Source: Chondrosia reniformis (taxonomy: Eukaryota > Porifera > Demospongiae > Chondrillida > Chondrillidae). From it: a stretch of DNA of 64,000 bases. Within the stretch, counting starts at the first letter, position 1; each line of letters begins with the position of its first letter. The stretch lies in NCBI GenBank assembly GCA_947172415.1, contig OX359196.1, positions 7,521,901 to 7,585,900 of the forward strand, given 5' to 3'. A program made the position numbers and the translations under genes. Positions 12,382 through 62,809 of the stretch are shown one piece after another. The notes under the pieces were generated by a model, which was given only the letters and a program-made list of their open reading frames with translations, did no database searches and was not told the DNA's origin.

Positions 12382-32814
<20,433 letters not shown>

Positions 32815-33142
32815 CCTATAGGCAGTTGCCTAGCAACAAGGAGAAATGCACACAGTCACATATATCGATAACAAGTGCATATTATGATTAATTAACATAA
32901 CATCAGTGTTAGGCATTGATGAATAGGAAAGACAAATACAAAATTTTTGCAATTATTGATACACTTTTGCAAAATGTAGATGGTAAGTATTGGCCTACAA
33001 TAACTACTATTATAACAATTATATTATAACACATGCCAGGAAACTTTATCAAATACAGTATAAAACTGTTATCACATGAAAGTGTTCCATTCAAAAATGT
33101 AAATACCACATTGCATAGGTACATACATACATAGCTTCAAAC

Positions 33143-40893: not shown

Positions 40894-43773
40894 ATGATCA
40901 CTATAAAATTGCTAACCATTCTGGAATTGGTACTCCTAAGTGTAACCATGGAGATGGTAGGCAGACAAAAAGGTAATTAAGTAAGGTACAGTAGTTATAG
41001 TATGCATAGTAGTAACAGCAAAAGATTATAATTATATACAGGTTGTCTAGCTTATAATACTATAGTGACTGACATATTATATTGGTTGGCATTATATTGA
41101 TTTTACCTAAAATAATAATATATAATAGTTCCATAACTTTTGTACACTAAATGTTTTCACTCAATAATATTGATAATGTACTTTTTAGAGTATATTTCAG
41201 TACTGATTGATGGATACACTCACAACACAACACTGGATTCTGGTGATACTGTACAACTGGGGACAACTGTTATTCTAGTCTGTTCAGTCACTGGAATACC
41301 TTATGGAGTACAAACTAGCTACAGATGGACCTGCCCTCATGGAATATGTAACATTGGAAGTCATATCTTGAAAATCCCTCTTATCTCTACAAGTGATGGA
41401 GGAGACTATACCTGTACTGTACTGGCTGATGGTATCAATAATAACAGTGCTGTATTTACATTCACTGCTAAACAACCAAGTGAGTTGAAAAACACTAGTA
41501 GTAACACATATAAGACAAGTCCCATCCCTCCATACTACAGCATCAGGTTTTATAGTTACTAGTCAGAACAGAAGCTTTGATCATGAAGCTGTCATTACTA
41601 ACATCACAGAAATAGCAGAAGACCAAGAGATAGGAGAGATACAGTGTAGATCGTACAATGGTGGTAATGCTACATGGGTTAGACCTGGATACACTATACC
41701 AACATCACCAACTGAAGATGTGTATAGTGAAAATGGTTCAACAGCTACACTCTTTGTTAAGAGAATATCAAATACAAGTGATGACTACTATTGTACTGAT
41801 AATGATACAAATCATAACATCAACTTATATTTATCCAACAGTAAGTCCATAGTTACTTAGAATAAACTTACACATGTTGTTTACATGCAAATTAAAATTT
41901 CTATATTTTACAGATACCTTACCAATACCTGCAATAACTTTCTTAAGAGAGGAGCAGGAAAATATTACGTTCACAGTATGTGGTAGTAGAGGTAAATATG
42001 TCACAAGATATGATCGTCTAGATCTAGGAGTACCAGTTGAGGTTGGACATGTAGAAGACAGTAATAAAAAGGTTTCACTGTCAGTAGTACCAGGTGGACT
42101 GTACAGGGTAAAGGTTTGGAGTATTAATGAACAAAATATCGGTTTAGCACCAAATGAGGCTACTTATAGAGCTAAGTCAAGTGGTATGTACTGCAGTATT
42201 GTTAACTGATTATGAGTATACATACATAATATGTTAGGTAGAATACAAGCAAGTAAAGTGTGCATATTCAATACATAACATTATTCCTTTACATACAGTA
42301 CCAACTAAACCAAGACACCTCACAATCACAAGAGTGTGTAAAGATGATGTTGAACTGAACTGGATACCTCCAAGAGAACCCAATGGAGAACTACACTATA
42401 TCATCCAGTATGGTTCCAACACAACCAACACAGCCAGTAACCTGACCTACTACAACTTGACAGGACTAGTGAATGGTACAACATACTACATTACAGTGAT
42501 GGCTGTGAACTCAGCTGGGAGTGGTACTAGTAATGTGATGAAGTATACACATTTAGTAGTTAATGGCTTAACAAATACTCTCACACCATCACCAACTACA
42601 CAGATAGTTAAGGATCACATTCCCTCCTCATCAGCCTCTCCTCCTAGCCTACTGCCAGCACTGACTATTAGAGTAGGAAGGATTGGTGACACAGCTGATG
42701 TCATGGTGACACCTACCATTGGTCAACCAGTACAGATGGAGTGTGAGAGGAGTGGTACACCCAAGAACTGGTACAGTGCAGGTAGTGTGGTTACTCCCAC
42801 TCCAGGAGAGGTAGCTACCACTGGAGGAGGAGGAGGAGTGAGAACATTGTCCATCTCACACTTCAGTTCAACTCATGCTGGAACATACACTTGTATAGTA
42901 GGACCTAATATTGCAGATCTGACATTCTACACTGTAGTTGGTGAGTGCAATGATTAAAAATAGTAATTCCTTCAATTATATGGTAGTATAGATCTATACG
43001 TACGTATGTATTAAACTGTTTCTACCGGTTTGTTAATGTAAAAATTCAATGACCCTGTTTTATAAACACATATACTTACGTAAGTATAGGTTGTACGTAT
43101 ATACGTACATGTACATGCATTGGAGAAGCTAATATTAAATTTCTTGATATATTCTACATATTCCATTCCTGGTCAGTACATAAAGTAAAGTTTCAATGGG
43201 AGAGTGGATATATGTACATTCATATATATATTCATAATATTCTTACTTTCTTCTACTATATATGCAGTCATGCAAACAAAAACTTCTACATCACCAGGTG
43301 AGTAATATCTGATTCACAATAGTGTCAATATGCATTGTTTGTTCTTTTTGCATACGTACACTCTGCAATTCATCTTATTCTCTTCACAGTCACACCAACA
43401 GTAACATATTTGTCAACAGGTGAGTAATATATATAAACATTAATATGCACATATTAGTATTGTATAACAATAAAATACAAATGCATATTATAATCAAACA
43501 GCTGTTGGATCTGTTGATTGGGAATCAATCCTACCACTGTCAGTAGTAGCAACTGCACTCTGCTCTGTTCTCATTACAAGTATCATTTGGTCAATCCTCA
43601 CTTACTACTGCTGTGTTAAGAAGAAACAGAATCAGTCGAGAGACTTGAAGAGACAAGAAAACGAAAATGACATTTATGATACAATTAATGAGCAAGATGA
43701 GGAGTATGGAGATATTATGGTACATCAATCACCAGCTTATGAAACAGTTGGAAATTATATAAACTGTAACTAG
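40894..43773 (+). CDS. type I membrane receptor: signal peptide, Ig and FN3 domains, TM, ITAM-like tail
   Basis: Eight coding exons in consistent phase give 637 residues: 40894-40972, 41189-41479, 41541-41840, 41914-42183, 42299-42940, 43268-43297, 43390-43419, 43502-43773. Residues 1-25 form a hydrophobic signal peptide (KLLTILELVLLSVTM). An Ig domain follows with the DGGDYTCTV signature, then a second Ig-like domain with SDDYYCTD, an FN3-like segment, a clear FN3 with NGTTYYITVMAVNSAGSG, and a third Ig-like domain ending STHAGTYTCIVG. Two 30-nt Thr-rich stalk exons precede one TM helix (LPLSVVATALCSVLITSIIW). The 50-residue tail is acidic and tyrosine-rich: IYDTI and EYGDI spaced as an ITAM, then YETV and YIN. 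Ligand and orthology are unknown. Phase-1 introns bound the extracellular modules, typical of shuffled exons. Confidence 0.88.
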
Positions 43774-44006
43774 CAGTATCCATGATGTTCATATAGATAC
43801 TATATATCAGTATCCATGATGTTCATATAGATACTATATATCAGTATCCATGATGTTCATAGAGATACTATACGTATATCAGTGTCCATGATGTTCATAT
43901 AGATACTATATATCAGTGTCCATGATGTTCATATAGATACTATATATCAGTTTCCATGATGTTCATAGAGATACTATATATCAGTGTCCATGATGTTCAT
44001 ATAGAT
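43774..44006. repeat. 34-bp tandem repeat beginning at the receptor stop codon
   Basis: About seven copies of a 34-bp unit (CAGTATCCATGATGTTCATA then TAGATACTATATAT) start immediately after the TAG stop of the Ig/FN3 receptor, so they form the beginning of its 3' UTR. Confidence 0.93.
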
Positions 44007-44331
44007 AATGACATAGCTATATATCTACTAAACTTTTGTATAAAACCTTACAGCTATAGAAATATAGAATTCTTGTGAAAAATTTTATGAGAAAGGAGAA
44101 TACTACTACTACTAAGGAGAATATACTGCCATTGTACATTAGGTAGTATTCTAAGACTCACCAATGTGCACCGTATTTTAGCATTTAGTGCTGGTACAAA
44201 GTATCAACCGTAGAATAATATATACACATAATGAGAGTGGGCCGGGTCATACGTACTGCATTACTTCACCACCTGGATGTGTTACGCCACTTTTAGTGGA
44301 ATTGCAAAACCTCGGATCATTCTGGAAAGTC
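44007..44331. other. intergenic / ST13 promoter region
   Basis: 325 bp between the repeat downstream of the receptor and the ST13 start codon; it must hold the ST13 promoter and 5' UTR. The frame upstream of the ST13 ATG is open to 44188 but has no conserved content, so the ATG at 44332 is preferred. Confidence 0.5.
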
Positions 44332-51403: not shown

Positions 51404-54400
51404 ATGTTGCTATTTCTGCTTTTTTTAAGCGTACTTGTCTCAGTTAGCTCTGCTTCCAACGATGCGGTTGCCGATGCGAGCGCGTCTTCTTGGCCTGTTT
51501 TTAGGAACGACTGTTTCGTAGCATATTTCACGGATAGTGTTACTGCTGAAGGGAGGAAGCAATTTTATAGAACACTAGAAGATGAAGCTACAGTTGGACT
51601 CAACGTTACCAAAGTAAATGAACTAGAAGAGAGTGCCTCTGGTTTCATATTTCTAGGAGACGAGGAATCTGCAAGCAAGGTCAGTGAGTCTTTTAGGCTG
51701 TATATAGGTCGAGTGCACCTCGTTAAGCCTGCTGTTGCGGTTTCATTTATGATAATAAAGCTTGTCTTGTCCAATTCTCATTATATCCCATTGTGGAAGG
51801 ACTTTAGACCTGCTTGGTTCAGCTTCATCTTAGCTTCGATAAGGTCCGTTTTAAGACGTTATTCGGACTACACTAACCTATGTGCTCTTTATTATGCTGT
51901 TTGTGTATCTCTCATTATGCTTTGTATATTCAATTACAGTATCTAATATTATTAATACTTTCACCTACTTAGTAGGTTTACACTGTTCAATTCAAATACG
52001 CTTATCAGCAGTGTATATATCACATTAATTAAACTTGTTGTATGATAAGTACTTTAACACAGTAAATGTTATTAATTTATAATGCATGTGGTGGATGGGA
52101 GTGTAGTTATTTGCTAATTCAATTAATGATATCATCAGCCTTTATTGCTCTTGGCTGAACCTATAGTATATTTCTATATAGTGATATAGTAGGTGAAAAT
52201 TTGATGAAGAGCTATATAATTTCTATATACAATATTACTTTTCCAAAAAAATAAATTGTCTAGTTTGACTGTAGTTACATAGAGAAAACACACTGTCCAC
52301 GTTCTGAAACACCTATCAAGCTTCTATCATTTCTATCAGATGTACATTAACATATTGTACTATGGAGTGGCAGTAAGTGTCATGCATATATTGAGCTAAG
52401 TACGTCTGCAGGAATGGTTCCTTAATTGAGGAATAGCAATCATTGGGCAACATTTAAGTGCATAGAGTCACTGACTCAGATTATATTTGCAGCTTTCAGG
52501 GTTTCAATCCAAGTCTTTAGCAAGGGGGGAGAATGCCCCACCCCCTGAATGAAACCCTGTCAATTTATCTTGTAAACTGACACATATTTAATGTGTTGGC
52601 CAATGCAATGCACATATAACGTATGCTTCTGAAGCTCAAAATATATAGGTAACAAAGATTCTTTTCTTTCTTGATCAAGTCAGCTATCAGACCCCATCCT
52701 TAATCTAGTAGTCCATTCCTCAGAAGGGTGTACATTAGATTTCTGAGGTCATTTACAGTTTGTAATGTAATATGTCTCGATTAAGTCTTAGTAAAACTAA
52801 TTAAGTTAATGCTAGTATTGTTAAGCAGAAGAATTTCTTGAAAATTGATATTGTTTATAATGTGTGTGTGTACATACATATAAAATAAGCTTTGAGGCTG
52901 TTAGCCATAACTGTCATGTAGTGTGATTTTCCACTTTTAACTAATCACACTGAATTTTGTAGATGAATGTGTGAAAATTATATAGTCTTATACTGCATTT
53001 GCAAGTTCTTTGTATTGTTCACTGAACCTTGAGCTAATATGTAGCTATATTGGCCAAAGAAAGTAAATGAAGTTTTTGTAGTTATACTTTACATAATAAT
53101 CAGTTACATGATGCAACCAAATTGCAATGATATATGTACATACGGTACATTCAAGTGCATTGATAAAAGTGTTGAATGAATTAATGTGTACAGTTAATTG
53201 TAGAATTCTTGAAGGATATTGAAAAGCTTCATTATTTTAAAATAATCAAGACATTTGGACCAATATATAGACCTTTGTTATTAACTGTTACAGTATAATC
53301 CATCACAGACTATGTACACCTTACTGATGGAAGACTTGTAGGTTAAAGTGTTCTGAGTATTGTAACTGTGTAGATTCATACACTGAAAGTGTGTGTATAT
53401 GATGTGTAGGTTGAGTGTACTGTATTCATTGGTATTGTATGCATGTCTATAGGACATGTAATGGAGAACATGATAGGATAACTGCAAGTTAATATTTTTA
53501 TAATCTTCAATTGAATGACTGTGCAGCTTTTCATTGAAGTCACATATCCTGATAATAAGGAAATGCTAGTAAAGAGTGTGAAATGTAACACTTACGATGT
53601 AATCCTTCCATGGTACACCTGACATGTAATATGATAGACTGAGTTATGTTTGTAGCGTATAACAAGACTAGTATCAATGTACTCATACAAGCTTGTAACA
53701 ATGTATGTTTACAGAGAAACTGTCAAAGGCTATAATGTACAGAATGTCTAATTATATTATTGAAATGGTTCACCTATATAGCAATCTTTTAAGCAATTGA
53801 ATGTTCACTTTGTACAGTATTCAAAATGTCAGCATGCAAAAGCTTTTATATAACAGTCCCAGAAAGATAAAAATAATAAGTGTGTACATACAGCTGAATA
53901 TATATATATACACCTGTCTATGCTAGCATCTCCGTTTGTAGCTGTCTAGCATGGAAGGTATTGAGGCAGTTATTCCTGATTATGTAATATACGGACAGAG
54001 GGATAGAAACGTGGAGTGGCATCTGGATAGGATAGACCAGCAGTGTCTCCCCCTCGATGGAATGACCTATAACCCTTACCTCAATGGAAGTGGAGTAGAC
54101 ATTTATATATTTGACACTGGAGCCAACTTTGACCACGATGAGCTGAAAGACAATACTATATTTCCTGGGAAGGACTTTATAGATGAAACATTAATGGAGA
54201 ACCAGAGAGGATACGACTGCAATGGACATGGTACCCACGTGGCAGCCCTTGCTGGGGGAAAGACCAAGGGAGTGGCACCTGGAGCTACTATTATCATCAT
54301 TCGTGTCCTTAACTGCTTCAATTTTGGACCTTATAGCACATTATTGCTGGGAATTGAATATGCCATTACCTTTAAGAAACAGCGAGCGAGAGAAGGCTTC

Positions 54401-56476
54401 AGTGGAAGGTCAATTGCATCCTTCTCATTACTGGGACCTGCAGATGAGCATATTGATATGAGTATACAATCATTGGTCAACAATGGGTTTGTAACAGTTG
54501 TTGCAGCAGGTAATTACAGAGATGATGCCTGTAACTATAGCCCCTCTAGGCTTCGTGACGTTATCACCGTGGGTGGCTCCAGGAAGGACAGCGACCAAAT
54601 TTATTGGTTTGATAGGACAACTAACAGCCCGGGCACTAATTATGGCCCCTGTGTTGACCTCTTTGCCCCTGGTCAGTGGGTCAACAGTGCAGGTCATGAC
54701 TGTACTAACTGTTCTGTTGTCCGAAGTGGAACATCAATGTCGACACCACTGGTGGCTGGTGCAATTGCTATACTACTTCAAGCAAACTCTACTCTGGGTG
54801 TACCGGACGTCAAAAAGGAACTGATAAGCATGTCATCCTATGGTCTGCTCAATTTTTCATATTTACCTGATGACAGAATTGCTAAGCAAACACCCAATAG
54901 ACTGCTGTACATACCAAGTGAGTTAGAGTATTGACATTTGATATTTATAAATGTAGGAGACAGTTATATACAATGCATAGAGCCAAGGACTCACAATAGA
55001 TCAAGAAAAAGACAGATTCCCAGGATCGAGAAGAAGACAAAGATTCCCAGAGGGGGGGGTCACTGATGAGGGTGGAATTCCCAGAAATAGCTGTCTGACC
55101 CAGTGGAGAAGAAGAGAAGTAACTCTTGTATCCTCATCCAAAGCTCTCACTAGATTTAGTTCCCTATAGGCCTCTACTCTAAAGTAGATGTAGCATGTAA
55201 GAAAATGGTATATTGATTATTCATACATACGTACACACACGCATATATATACTCTAGCTCTCTGAAAAGTAGTCACTTTGAGCTAAGAGTTGTTTCAGTA
55301 TAATAATGATATAAATGAATTGAAATATAAAGGCTCTCAATATTTAGTAAATCCAACAATTACTATGTTTGTTTCAATATTTTAGGAGTTGATGGATTGG
55401 GCAATGATGCCTGTGTCAATTACACTGTGCCACATACCGTACCTCCCACTCTACCAGGAACTGTTTCTGAGCCGACCATCCCTGATGGGACAACAAAAGA
55501 ACCAACACAACCTTCCCCAGACCCCACCACAGAAAGGGTTGTTTCATCTTCCTCTCCTTCTCCTTCTCCTTCTCCGTCTCCCTCTCCATCTCCCACATCT
55601 CTTGGTGGGCGATTACTATATGAATATTTACCCAAAGAGTTTTGTAGGGGAGAGACTTTAACAGCTGAACGTTCAACTGTATATGACTTCCTTCCAGGCA
55701 ATGTGCTAGTGCAGTATTATAATGACCTCAGGAGTCTTGGCTATAGCTTGGTAAGCCTCAGTTCCATCAGTACATCTATGAATACTCCTACTCGATACAT
55801 AGCAGTCTTTAGCAAGCAGTTTAGCATCAGCACTATTGCAATCTTCAATTATAACTTTGTGGGTATGCATTTGGAATTGTTAAGGTATCTTTCAAGGGGA
55901 TATTATGTCCACCAAATAGTTCCTGGCCTGGCGTTAAACTCAAGAAATAAACTACAAATAATTTATTCTGCAGTGCTATATAGATATGCTGATTACAGAG
56001 TGACATATTGGAACTTAGAACAATCTAGATCATCAATTATTACTTTTGCAAACAAAAAATCTAAAGTCACTTCTCGAAATAGTGCCGAAATTCAAATGGT
56101 TGCTGGCATTCAAAAGGGTTCAAAGGAGACAATGCTCTTTATCACAAGACCTCATAGTTACTATAGGTGGTTGTCATTTGTGCGTTTGACTTTACAAGAA
56201 ACTAAGACGCAGCTCCTCCTACAGCACATCAGAGGGAACTATCTGGTGCACTTTGACTCATACAGGACATCAGACACGACAATGTATTACTCTTTGGTCT
56301 TTTCAAACAAGATATGGAGCCATTGCAGCTACCAGGTCATTATGGATATGACAAGAGAAGAGTTAGCTGCCAATACTCGGAAGCTGAGTGATGCTGGATG
56401 GATAATGCACACTGTTGGTGCTTATACAGCTCTCCGTGGCCATACTTTTCAGTATATAGCAGTCTACTGGAAGTAA
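51404..56476 (+). CDS. secreted subtilisin/proteinase K-type serine protease with repeat C-terminal domain
   Basis: Peptidase family S8 protease, three exons (51404-51679, 53942-54917, 55386-56476), 780 residues. Start chosen at 51404 because it opens a signal peptide (MLLFLLFLSVLVSVSSAS); an in-frame ATG at 51329 would only add a polar leader. Exon 1 also carries an I9-type inhibitory propeptide (CFVAYFTDSVTAEGRKQFY). Exon 2 holds the catalytic domain with an intact triad: Asp150 in FDTGAN, His191 in GHGTHVAAL, Ser357 in SGTSMSTPLVAG, and oxyanion Asn283 in AAGN. Exon 3 begins with a Thr/Pro linker and an (SP)n tract, then about 270 residues that read as roughly five related segments with recurring aromatic-rich strands (RYIAVFSK, QIIYSAVLYRY, MYYSLVFS, FQYIAVYWK). 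These resemble the tandem beta repeats next to polyglycine-hydrolase-type proteins. The 2.3 kb first intron shows no gene. Confidence 0.9.
54985..55220 (+). repeat. dispersed repeat copy (in protease intron 2)
   Basis: Same order of landmarks as copy A: TCACTGATGAGGGTGGAATT, CTGTCTGACCCAGTGGAGAA, CATCCAAAGCTCTCACTAGA, GTTCCCTATAGGCCTC and GTAGCATGTAAGAAAATGG. Confidence 0.8.
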
Positions 56477-60200: not shown

Positions 60201-62809
60201 CTCTTGTGATTGAACTACCAAATATGGTATTCATATGTGCTAATATTGAGCCACCTGAAGGAACAATCCGAGGGATTTCCCCATTTCGATATCAACAAAT
60301 AAAACGCATATATGGTAATATATGGTTTTGGGAAATCCCCGCTCTGTCCCTAACATCTGTGTATGTTTCCCTCTCCAAGCCTGAGGACTCCTCCGGTCAC
60401 ACCTGGCATGTTCATGAGGAAGCTGTAGGATCAGGCAGCTGTGATGAGGCCGGAGGACATTATGATCCTCTGGGGGCCAATGGGACCTCTGGGTACAATT
60501 GCTCTTCACTAAACCAGTCCACTTGTGAGGTGGGAGACTTGGCTGGAAAGTCTTCAACCCTCTCCTTTCATGATGGATTGTCTCGTCTGTTCTACCAGGA
60601 CAGCCAACTTCCATTAATAGAGAGACATGGGGCTACAATATTGAACCGCTCAGTCGTCGTTCATAATGCAAATGGCGACCCTAAGAGGGTGGATTGTGCA
60701 GACATTGTGCGTTTCCCCGTCCGGTCTGCCAAAGCAGAGTTTGATACTGGAAATATTACAGGTGCCATATTGTTACAGCAAAGGTCACCATATGAGCACA
60801 CAACTGTGAACTTTAACCTGACCGGGCTTTCCAACATAAAAAACATAAAAATAATAGAAAGCTGCCGTCAAGATGACTTGTTTAATCCAAATGGTCGGGT
60901 ACCTCCAGTGGGAGACTTGGGTGAAAGGCTTTTTCTCCCCGGAATGCCTGACCCGAGTATGCCGTACGAGGACCCACTTCTTCCATTGTTTGGTCAGCAT
61001 AGTGTGTTGGGTTGGAGTGTGGTACTGGAGGAGGCTGATGGTAGCAGACTGGCCTGCTCCAGCATAACCCGCACCGGTCCTGTTGTGATCCTGCAGGCTG
61101 TGTTCAAGCTGAATGGCCTTGAAGGAACATTGGTCTTTACACAGCTCCAAGATGATCCACTCTCTGAAACTACAATTGTGCTTGAGGCTCCTCCTAAGAA
61201 CGCCTCATCCACACAACTCCCTTCCGATTCTGAAGGTCCAGTTACTAGCACTGTTGTAGTCCCTCCTGGCACCAGTGAGAGGAGTATGGTAACCATGGCA
61301 ACATCAACAGTAGTAGTGGACACCTCAGTAAGGATAGTATCTGCTGTCTCTAGTATGCTTACCTCCAGTCAAGAGGCTACACCTTCCTCATCTACCTCAA
61401 CAGTGGCCATGTTATCCTCCTCCAGTCCAGATGGCCCCTCCCCCAGCACAGGTGGCCCCTCCCCCAGTCTAGGTGGCCCCTCCCCCAGCATAGATGGCCC
61501 CTCCCCCAGCATAGGTGGCCCCTCCCCCAGCACAGGTGGCCCCTCCCCCAGCATAGGTGGCCCCTCCCCCAGCATAGGTGGCCCCTCCCCCAGCACAGGT
61601 GGCCCCTCCTCCAGTCTAGATAGATCCTCCTCTTCTGAGGTACAAGAAGGGTCTACTGGTTCAATATCCTCTTCTGGGACATCGAGTCAAAGTTCAGAAG
61701 TGACATCATCTACCGCCACCACATCCCTGTTCTCTTCTTTGAATGCTGTAGCTAGTAGCACTTCTGTGTCTACTGACAGTTCTGTTCTGCCCAAGAACCC
61801 ATCCTCGCAGCTCAGCTCTGTCAGCATTAGCGTCACTACTTCTGCTACCTCACCTTCCATATCTGAGGCTGTGCAGTCATCATCAGAAGATGAGACGTCC
61901 TCAGTTCCAGACATTTCCAATGCAGCCACTCAACAGTCAGCCATGTCGTCAAATTCCATTAGGTCCTCCCCCACTACGTTGTTGGAGATCACACCCACAT
62001 TTTCTGTGACAGTCTCACCATCCAGTTCTGTTCAAACTGCTCCAGATATGTCCACTTCATTGCCAGTCCCTGGTAGGAGGAAGAGACTACTTCTCTCAAA
62101 GGTTGACCAGCGTCCTTCAGTCTCCAGGAAGACAAAGAGACAGGTAGATATGTTGTCATGGAGCATCCGACCTTCCTGTGAAGATGGAGTCCCTGAGAGT
62201 CCCAGTGGATGTGCAGTGGACACACCTCTGGCTTGTGACCTCGGAGATTTGGAAGGGAAGCATGGATCACTGGTCCCTGATGGATCCCCCTACAGAGTGT
62301 TTAATGACCCCTACCTACCCCTAACTGGAGAGAATGGAAGTAAGACAGTTGTTATAGTCTATCGGTACTTGTATACATATGTACATAGTAAGGATATGTA
62401 TACATGTGCATATATACTAATACTATATATGTGTAGATGTACGTACAAGTGTGTGTTAAAGTTACCAACCTGTGTATCTGTTTGATAGTTGATGGATCAG
62501 TTTTAGTGTTAGAAATGTCTGGAAGAAGCACTTGTGTTTCAATCCAACCTTTACCCGCAACTCCTTCCACCCCAAGTGCTTCTTCTACTCCAACACCACC
62601 TCCTCCTTCTCCTCCCACTACAGGTAAGTGTTGATGTACTATGTACTCACTTATTGTGTACATATCCATGACAGAACCTATACATATGTATTTACACTCG
62701 AGTGGTGTCATTGTTGCTGTATGAATACGTCCCCAAGGAGCTTAACCCATCTACCCAGCAGCAATATACTACTTTATTGTGCACACCATCATCGCTAGAT
62801 GTACTGTGT
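57273..62809 (+). CDS. secreted SOD-repeat protein with mucin-like insert (3' end beyond window)
   Basis: Exons 57273-57330 (signal peptide, MLTLLQGVILIFLRCLVARG), 59835-62339, 62489-62623 and 62703-62809, all in phase; the gene continues to the right. The big exon carries several Cu/Zn-superoxide-dismutase-like domains. The second keeps all four copper ligands: H211 and H213 in WHVHEEA, H228 in GGHYDP, H296 in VVVHNAN, with the 15-residue 213-228 spacing of SOD1. The zinc histidines are absent (EVGDL where SOD1 has HVGDL), which points to a copper-only SOD. Flanking domains have lost the ligands (SIHTYP; VVLEEADGSRLAC). The last domain is split by about 270 Ser/Thr/Pro residues with nine GGPSPSI-type heptads and two furin-like sites (GRRKR, RKTKR). 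Such copper-only SOD-repeat proteins are known from marine invertebrates. Exon 4 begins the LLYEYVPKE module. Confidence 0.82.
57331..59834 (+). other. 2.5 kb first intron of the SOD-repeat gene
   Basis: Runs from the donor GTACGTGC after the signal-peptide exon to the acceptor CTTTCTACAG. It contains a short 11-bp tandem repeat (CTGACCTCTTT, 59399-59440) and a 94-residue open frame at 59119-59403 of no recognised family. No other gene was seen. Confidence 0.55.
61432..61625 (+). repeat. 21-bp coding repeat (GGPSPSI/T heptads)
   Basis: About nine in-frame copies of GGTGGCCCCTCCCCCAGCAT plus A inside the mucin-like insert of the SOD-repeat gene. The reverse strand also stays open through it, but that is a shadow. 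Confidence 0.94.

Follow-up and report, generated by a model that had tools for sequence, protein, structure and literature searches.

CD3, FcR-gamma and DAP12 are canonical ITAM receptors. A predicted Ig/FN3 receptor gene on chromosome 8 of the demosponge Chondrosia reniformis ends in a tail with two YxxI motifs at ITAM spacing, and the question that this locus raises is whether the tail represents a conserved ancient ITAM or a variant of a single gene copy. An early origin of ITAM/ITIM signalling has already been argued from cnidarians and tunicates (PMC12065747, in the sections that concern these animals). Our search of the open-access literature on ITAMs in sponges, Porifera or Amphimedon produced no title that we recognised as dealing with a sponge ITAM receptor. 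To address the question we analysed the 64,000-nucleotide stretch of DNA that holds the gene (C8:7521901-7585900, henceforth referred to as the window) against the whole assembly of 117,379,552 bases in 15 contigs.

Results

The gene encodes a predicted Ig/FN3 receptor with a short tail

An eight-exon gene model with phase-1 introns was built by hand from AG/GT borders, using the DNA sequence only. The model spans positions 40894-43773, the reading frame is open across all eight exons and the predicted protein has 637 amino acids (Table 1). Pfam domains above cut-off were found for Ig (residues 48-117), fn3 (residues 317-390) and Ig_3 (residues 453-514), which bears out an earlier, sequence-only reading of this DNA as coding for an Ig/FN3 receptor; the host is also, as that reading had supposed, an early animal. 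A search with PF00041, in which 150 of 2147 FN3 candidates were scored, did not place the window gene. Exon 5 of the window is open between the FN3 and Ig domains (42524-42562) at a place where two related genes, L010 and L011, carry stops and therefore probably an intron; the continuity of exon 5 in the window could reflect either loss of that intron or a short intron that was overlooked.

Several other features were observed in the window. On the minus strand (30937-32829) there is a long, proline-rich open frame with a SAM domain near its start and several tyrosine motifs, which we take to be perhaps an ARAP-type adaptor. A Subtilase (Peptidase_S8) domain lies within a 330-amino acid open frame at 53942-54934, and a 907-amino acid open frame contains a stretch rich in GPSPSxGGPSPS repeats at about 61400-61600.

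Table 1. Features of the receptor gene and its flank, in window coordinates
Feature	Positions	Strand	Basis or remark
Exon 1, with start codon; hydrophobic leader, by eye a signal peptide	40894..40972	+	splice reading
Exon 2, N-terminal Ig domain	41189..41479	+	Ig_2 5.3e-6, score equal to cut-off; marginal alone
Exon 3, probable Ig domain	41541..41840	+	Cys...Trp...DDYYC by eye; alone, no Pfam match
Exon 4, possible FN3-like domain	41914..42183	+	by eye; alone, no convincing Pfam match
Exon 5, FN3 and membrane-proximal Ig	42299..42940	+	fn3 2.8e-12, Ig_3 6.4e-14
Exon 6, short linker	43268..43297	+	splice reading
Exon 7, short linker	43390..43419	+	splice reading
Exon 8, transmembrane span, cytoplasmic tail and stop	43502..43773	+	splice reading
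Hydrophobic membrane span, residues about 557-586	43528..43617	+	by eye
ITAM-pattern YDTI-x6-YGDI (Y606, Y616)	43675..43716	+	gene-model translation
SPAYETV, third tyrosine	43729..43749	+	[SN]PxY in 39/39 intact tails
YIN, C-terminal extension	43756..43764	+	1/39 tails; behind 4-base gap relative to L010
34-bp minisatellite, 6.8 copies, from first base after stop	43774..44007	+	repeat found in sequence

The tail carries an ITAM pattern behind a probable membrane span

In the gene-model translation the window tail reads ...NDIYDTINEQDEEYGDIMVHQSPAYETVGNYINCN, as described earlier. Its motif can be read directly as Y606-D-T-I, followed by the six residues N-E-Q-D-E-E and then by Y616-G-D-I, with codons that start at 43675 (Y606), 43684 (I609), 43705 (Y616) and 43714 (I619). 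The YETV and YIN motifs that follow contain the tyrosines Y627 (codon start 43738) and Y633 (codon start 43756); the codon of N635 ends at 43764 and the TAG stop occupies 43771-43773. The motifs themselves were re-read exactly as first reported, and the spacing of YDTI-x6-YGDI is that of an ITAM (two YxxL/I motifs at x6-8, extending to 12). A hydrophobic span and the residues KKK lie upstream of the motif, which by eye, and on the hand-built model, would place it in the cytoplasm.

To gauge how readily such a pattern arises by chance, we shuffled the 51-residue tail 200,000 times and recovered YxxL/I-x6-8-YxxL/I in 0.43% and the x6-12 form in 0.93% of the shuffles, rates that have to be read with the caveat that this tail had been singled out by a search for oddities. 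The bare x6-8 pattern was matched 16 times in the 22,737 residues of the six-frame open reading frames of at least 60 amino acids in the window, nine of these matches falling in one tyrosine-rich repeat. Since the bare pattern is not rare, its weight rests on its placement behind a membrane span and not on the pattern alone.

The paired YxxI motif belongs to one copy of a large family

With exon 8 as the query, 36 places were found in the sponge's own genome at E <=10 (self included), and searches with two further tail types yielded 45 and 40 places, mostly at the same loci. From 44 candidates (L009-L038 and L070-L083) we kept 43, L083 not being a convincing relative, and the exclusion of four broken copies (L015, L016, L025 and L070) left 39 intact tails for counting. 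Of the 43 exons, 35 were recovered at E <0.001; L073-L078, L081 and L082, all on C1, reached E values of only 0.0025-0.97 and were joined to the family by their layout and motif. Left out were the place at C3:2324541, whose frame is interrupted by two stops, and the weak places on C5, C11, C12 and at C1:9012314. The tallies that follow count loci with near-identical copies uncollapsed and so do not represent independent events. A search of GTDB contigs and IMG/VR (prokaryotes and viruses) found no relative of the tail, which says nothing on orthologues.

The third tyrosine, in the form [SN]PxY, is present in every one of the 39 intact tails, and 38 of them have V, L or I at its +3 position. 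The first tyrosine (Y1), mostly within YExV, is present in 37 tails, 34 of which have V or I at +3 (by eye). By contrast with the third tyrosine, the second ITAM tyrosine (Y2) is present in only 11 of the 39 (Y1 and Y2 were both counted by eye): the segment that would contain it exists in 24 tails and has Y in 11, F in 4, C in 3, R in 1 and H in 5 (by eye). When the eight weak C1 copies are omitted, the counts by eye become 30/31 for Y1, 11/31 for Y2 and 31/31 for the third tyrosine (Y3). A retained Y2 follows the Y1 motif at 5-6 residues (8 in L080) and precedes the third tyrosine by 7; the Y1-Y3 gap varies from 9 to 19 residues, with both tyrosines retained in most copies.

Isoleucine at both +3 positions (YxxI-x6-YxxI) is found in a single intact tail, that of the window, and a canonical ITAM of any kind in two of the 39, the window and L080 (YEEI-x7-YGVL). 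If V is permitted, a YxxV/I/L pair at a distance of 6-8 is seen in 11 of the 39. An ITIM regular expression also matched 11 of the 39 tails, six of them VYYESV tails on C1, and those for ITSM and, roughly, hemITAM matched none of the 39. The L080 tail (C8:855030-855530) has been enlarged by repeats around VYEPV; it ends in its ITAM and contains nine tyrosines in all.

The YIN motif occurs in one tail of the 39: relative to L010, the window is without 4 bases just ahead of the L010 stop, and its frame continues into NYINCN. YIN (Grb2-type) as a trait of the family was rejected on this count.

L010 and L011 belong to a tandem array that likewise lies on chromosome 8, at a distance of about 125 kb, with 84-90% identity to the window in FN3 and 93-96% in the membrane-proximal Ig. 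The L010 tail reads YEVV-x6-YEEV, with KK before Y2 where the window has EE, and the L011 tail reads YEVV-x6-FEEV, in which F replaces the second tyrosine. Neither these two tails nor those of L012 and L017 matched the ITAM or ITIM expression. The prospect that relatives which keep the Ig/FN3 part would also keep the paired YxxI motifs therefore did not hold among these paralogues: L010 and L011 retain FN3 and the last Ig and have V at both +3 positions, and conservation of the ITAM was rejected on the counts within this genome.

These counts also bear on how such tails would work. NPxY binds PTB domains. The tail could act chiefly through [SN]PxY and Y1, by way of PTB/adaptor, endocytic or single-SH2 contacts in adhesion or uptake, with the ITAM being fortuitous. 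The invariance of [SN]PxY beside the sparse retention of Y2 is what such a tail would show, as is a Y1-Y3 gap that varies while both tyrosines mostly persist. However, the surviving Y2 residues lie in or near the ITAM range, and more than a quarter of the tails (the 11 noted above) have a YxxV/I/L pair at 6-8, and we regard this explanation as somewhat doubtful.

The window gene is a patchwork

The DNA identity of the window to L010 is 93-100% over 43385-43624 (exon 7, intron 7 and the membrane span); beyond 43624 it falls to 72-77% for the greater part of the tail and to 47-58% from the stop onwards. Silent differences from L010 number 0 of 30 in the transmembrane (TM) part; for the cytoplasmic part the figure is 7.8 of 24.2. 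When exons 2-5 and TM are taken together and set against the cytoplasmic part, the comparison is 31/375 vs 8/24 for L010 (p 9e-4) and 28/379 vs 10/24 for L011 (p 1.3e-5). Among 348 pairs of exon 8, window-L010 is the pair with the most discordant TM and tail (p 8.9e-4, not significant once corrected for the 348 pairs). L010 and L017 display the opposite pattern, in which the tails are alike and the membrane spans divergent.

Upstream, similarity to L010 and L011 is uneven, with identities of 88% in exon 2, 76-82% in exon 3 and 62-67% in exon 4. Identity to L010 is 73% over 43213-43308, and the intron 6 stretch aligns poorly; intron 7 is similar in L010 and only about 55% identical in L011. On small numbers of differences from L010, dN exceeds dS in exon 4 (0.27 vs 0.19) and in FN3 (0.049 vs 0.018), approximately equals it in exon 2 and falls below it both in exon 3 and in the last Ig. 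A tree of the Ig exon from seven copies did not firmly place the window with L010 and L011, because conservation of the last Ig exon is high throughout this set; given this conservation across the C8, C10 and C13 copies, closeness to L010 and L011 in that exon is weak evidence alone. When 14 copies were compared in a tree of their tails, only the window was flagged as long-branched (0.37 vs a median of 0.016). A single clade of the window, L010 and L011 was rejected for the tail by the AU test (p 0.008, with the long branch in play), and the best tail tree places the window within a wider C8 group with weak support (42/69).

From these sequence comparisons we favour piecemeal gene conversion upstream, which would have left the tail unconverted, although the uneven upstream similarity and the divergence of intron 7 in L011 are results against a simple conversion. 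The patchwork could instead have arisen from hypermutation next to the minisatellite combined with relaxed constraint on the tail, with no upstream conversion. The minisatellite does begin directly after the stop, and the tail tree, weak as its support is, still links the window to the C8 group by a very long branch. However, the change relative to L010 is a step near the border of membrane and cytosol with no obvious gradient, the reversed pattern of L010 and L017 does not suit this explanation, and the AU test, subject to the long branch, speaks against a common tail clade. Hypermutation is a tenable but tentative alternative to conversion.

The divergence of the tail might also mean that it is decaying free of constraint and that its ITAM is noise. 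Consistent with decay, dN/dS of the tail is 0.45-0.64 in seven pairs that involve the window vs 0.15-0.33 in the 15 other listed pairs, and the four broken sister copies show that members of the family do break. Nevertheless, the reading frame is intact in all exons, and all three family tyrosines, with an aliphatic residue at +3, have survived although 19 of the 45 aligned tail residues differ (by eye), an argument that is weak as far as the tyrosines go, their retention alone having a probability of about 0.18 by chance (hand reckoning). Overall, we consider decay unlikely.

Possible SH2 readers are present in the same genome

A Syk-family gene with two SH2 domains is located at C6:6.833-6.843 Mb on the minus strand. 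The closest solved structures to its tandem SH2 are SYK (5e-42) and then ZAP-70, and its kinase exons gave the EGFR-labelled 9p9u as top match, followed by ZAP-70 and SYK. About 13 kb from the first, at C6:6854356 (L058), we observed a second Syk N-SH2 exon, identical over an 82-residue open frame, which is either a tandem copy or an assembly duplication. On C5 (L048, 7562793-7566026), SH2, ankyrin repeats and a partial second SH2 follow one another in the layout of Shark; SHARK/HTK16 is described as a relative of Syk in invertebrates that has ankyrin repeats (PMC10253181, in the portion dealing with it).

An SH2 exon at C3:9.110 Mb has SHP-2 as its best match. SH2 and tyrosine kinase domains recur within one frame on C9, and we take these frames to be Src-type. 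Also on C9 (1355380-1360658; L046, L051, L054 and L062) are two adjoining ORFs, each of which encodes three SH2 domains in tandem. The FLxR-type arginine is present in all six of these domains (by eye), and the closest solved chains to the triple-SH2 ORF that was compared are of the Src family. The triple-SH2 proteins may serve as multivalent readers of tri-tyrosine tails.

The sequence-only reading had suggested that ITAM/Syk signalling, or at least its motif, is old. A tandem-SH2 Syk-family gene and a Shark-type gene are indeed present; conservation of the paired YxxI is not supported, the motif being unshared by the paralogues. A conserved, functional ITAM that dates from an early animal ancestor and works with Syk would be in keeping with the canonical consensus and spacing, with the Syk family in this genome and with the report of Syk-family sequences from sponges up to primates (PMC9601881, in its passages on distribution). 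However, the double YxxI is confined to one tail in 39, Y2 is replaced by F in L011, the close relatives have V at +3 and the window is the sole long branch of the tail tree, all of which makes such an ITAM very unlikely.

Discussion

We propose, with moderate confidence, that the window gene belongs to a family of Ig/FN3 receptors with phosphotyrosine-docking tails and that drift or selection has given this copy the full ITAM consensus. It is a member of an expanded family of predicted type I receptors in this sponge (43 membrane-plus-tail exons), whose short tail would serve as a docking strip made up of Y1, a facultative Y2 some six residues on and the invariant [SN]PxY tyrosine. Contact with a ligand would cluster the receptors, Src-type kinases would phosphorylate the tail and SH2 proteins would then dock on it. 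In the window copy, drift or selection would have brought I to both +3 positions, and the resulting full consensus makes it a good candidate for two-phosphotyrosine binding of the sponge's tandem-SH2 Syk. In nearly all relatives the +3 residue is V, which the strict ITAM consensus does not include; the majority of the family may therefore bypass Syk. The motif, the family with its conservation pattern, the patchwork and the SH2 genes are seen in the sequence; Syk binding, phosphorylation and the direction in which the receptor signals are inferred, as is any part in immunity or self-recognition. On the tails compared here, this ITAM is a variant of a single patchwork copy, and the traits that last in the family are a tyrosine tail with the invariant [SN]PxY and Y1.

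The window gene shares YxxI-x6-YxxI in an acidic tail with CD3, FcR-gamma and DAP12, and a Syk-family gene is present in its genome; unlike them, it has relatives without the motif and a large ectodomain of its own, and is not an adaptor chain. Among invertebrates, the oyster (Crassostrea gigas) receptor CgIgIT2 is described as a five-Ig IgSF receptor with an ITAM tail that binds microbes and acts through ERK phosphorylation (PMC11999971, in the passages on this receptor). Both are invertebrate IgSF receptors with a transmembrane span (a putative one in the window gene) and a tail ITAM, but, by that description, CgIgIT2 has five Ig domains, whereas the window gene combines Ig with FN3 and belongs to a large family in which a single member has this ITAM. 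The Alr genes of Hydractinia form a 41-member IgSF family (PMC11999971, where it mentions them), and ITAM and ITIM have been reported in allorecognition candidate genes of this animal (PMC12065747, in the part that covers it). The likeness to Alr, by description, is that of one invertebrate IgSF gene family to another; the Alr genes are cnidarian V-set/I-set genes with a reported role in allorecognition, whereas the window gene is known from its sequence. Ig-superfamily receptors of the Botryllus fuhc locus (apparently FcoR) are reported to have ITIM and hemITAM (PMC12065747, in the section on this tunicate), in contrast to the Chondrosia reniformis tails, with no hemITAM in 39 by a rough regular expression. 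Sponge Ig receptors that are raised after grafting include, as far as the cited text of PMC2248247 describes them, a kinase class with its own kinase domain, from which the window gene differs in its short tail without one.

The near-identity of FN3, the last Ig and the membrane span between the window and array genes with differing tails is, by analogy, somewhat paired-receptor-like. In the vertebrate paired receptors CD300A and CD300C, gene conversion keeps the ectodomains alike while the tails diverge and the outputs oppose each other (PMC12447643, in its account of this pair). The resemblance lies in the alike ectodomain parts and divergent tails; unlike CD300A/CD300C as described there, the window and L010 are near-identical only in FN3, the last Ig and the membrane span, with exons 3-4 at 62-82%. 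The opposite motifs of paired receptors are also missing, the window having an ITAM but no ITIM match and L010, L011, L012 and L017 neither ITAM nor ITIM. The wider proposition would be that a demosponge possesses a germline system of paired-receptor type, with membrane-proximal parts shared by conversion and exchangeable tails of one to nine tyrosines, nine being the number in L080 (ITAM-like, ITIM-like or neither), that are read by Syk, Shark, SHP-2 and two triple-SH2 proteins in immunity or in the distinction of self from non-self. We consider a system of this type improbable, the more so since similarity in exons 3 and 4 is far lower than in the membrane-proximal part.

Were the pattern of alike membrane-proximal parts and changing tails to hold true, the tuning of output by the tail on a shared receptor frame would either predate the split of the sponges from other animals or have arisen independently in them. 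The genome offers a testable set for this, comprising one ITAM tail, natural variants with V at both +3 positions or without a tyrosine, and its own Syk, Shark-type and triple-SH2 genes. As far as its sequence can indicate, the window gene argues for a family of receptors that signal through tyrosines in an early animal, and not for a conserved ancient ITAM.
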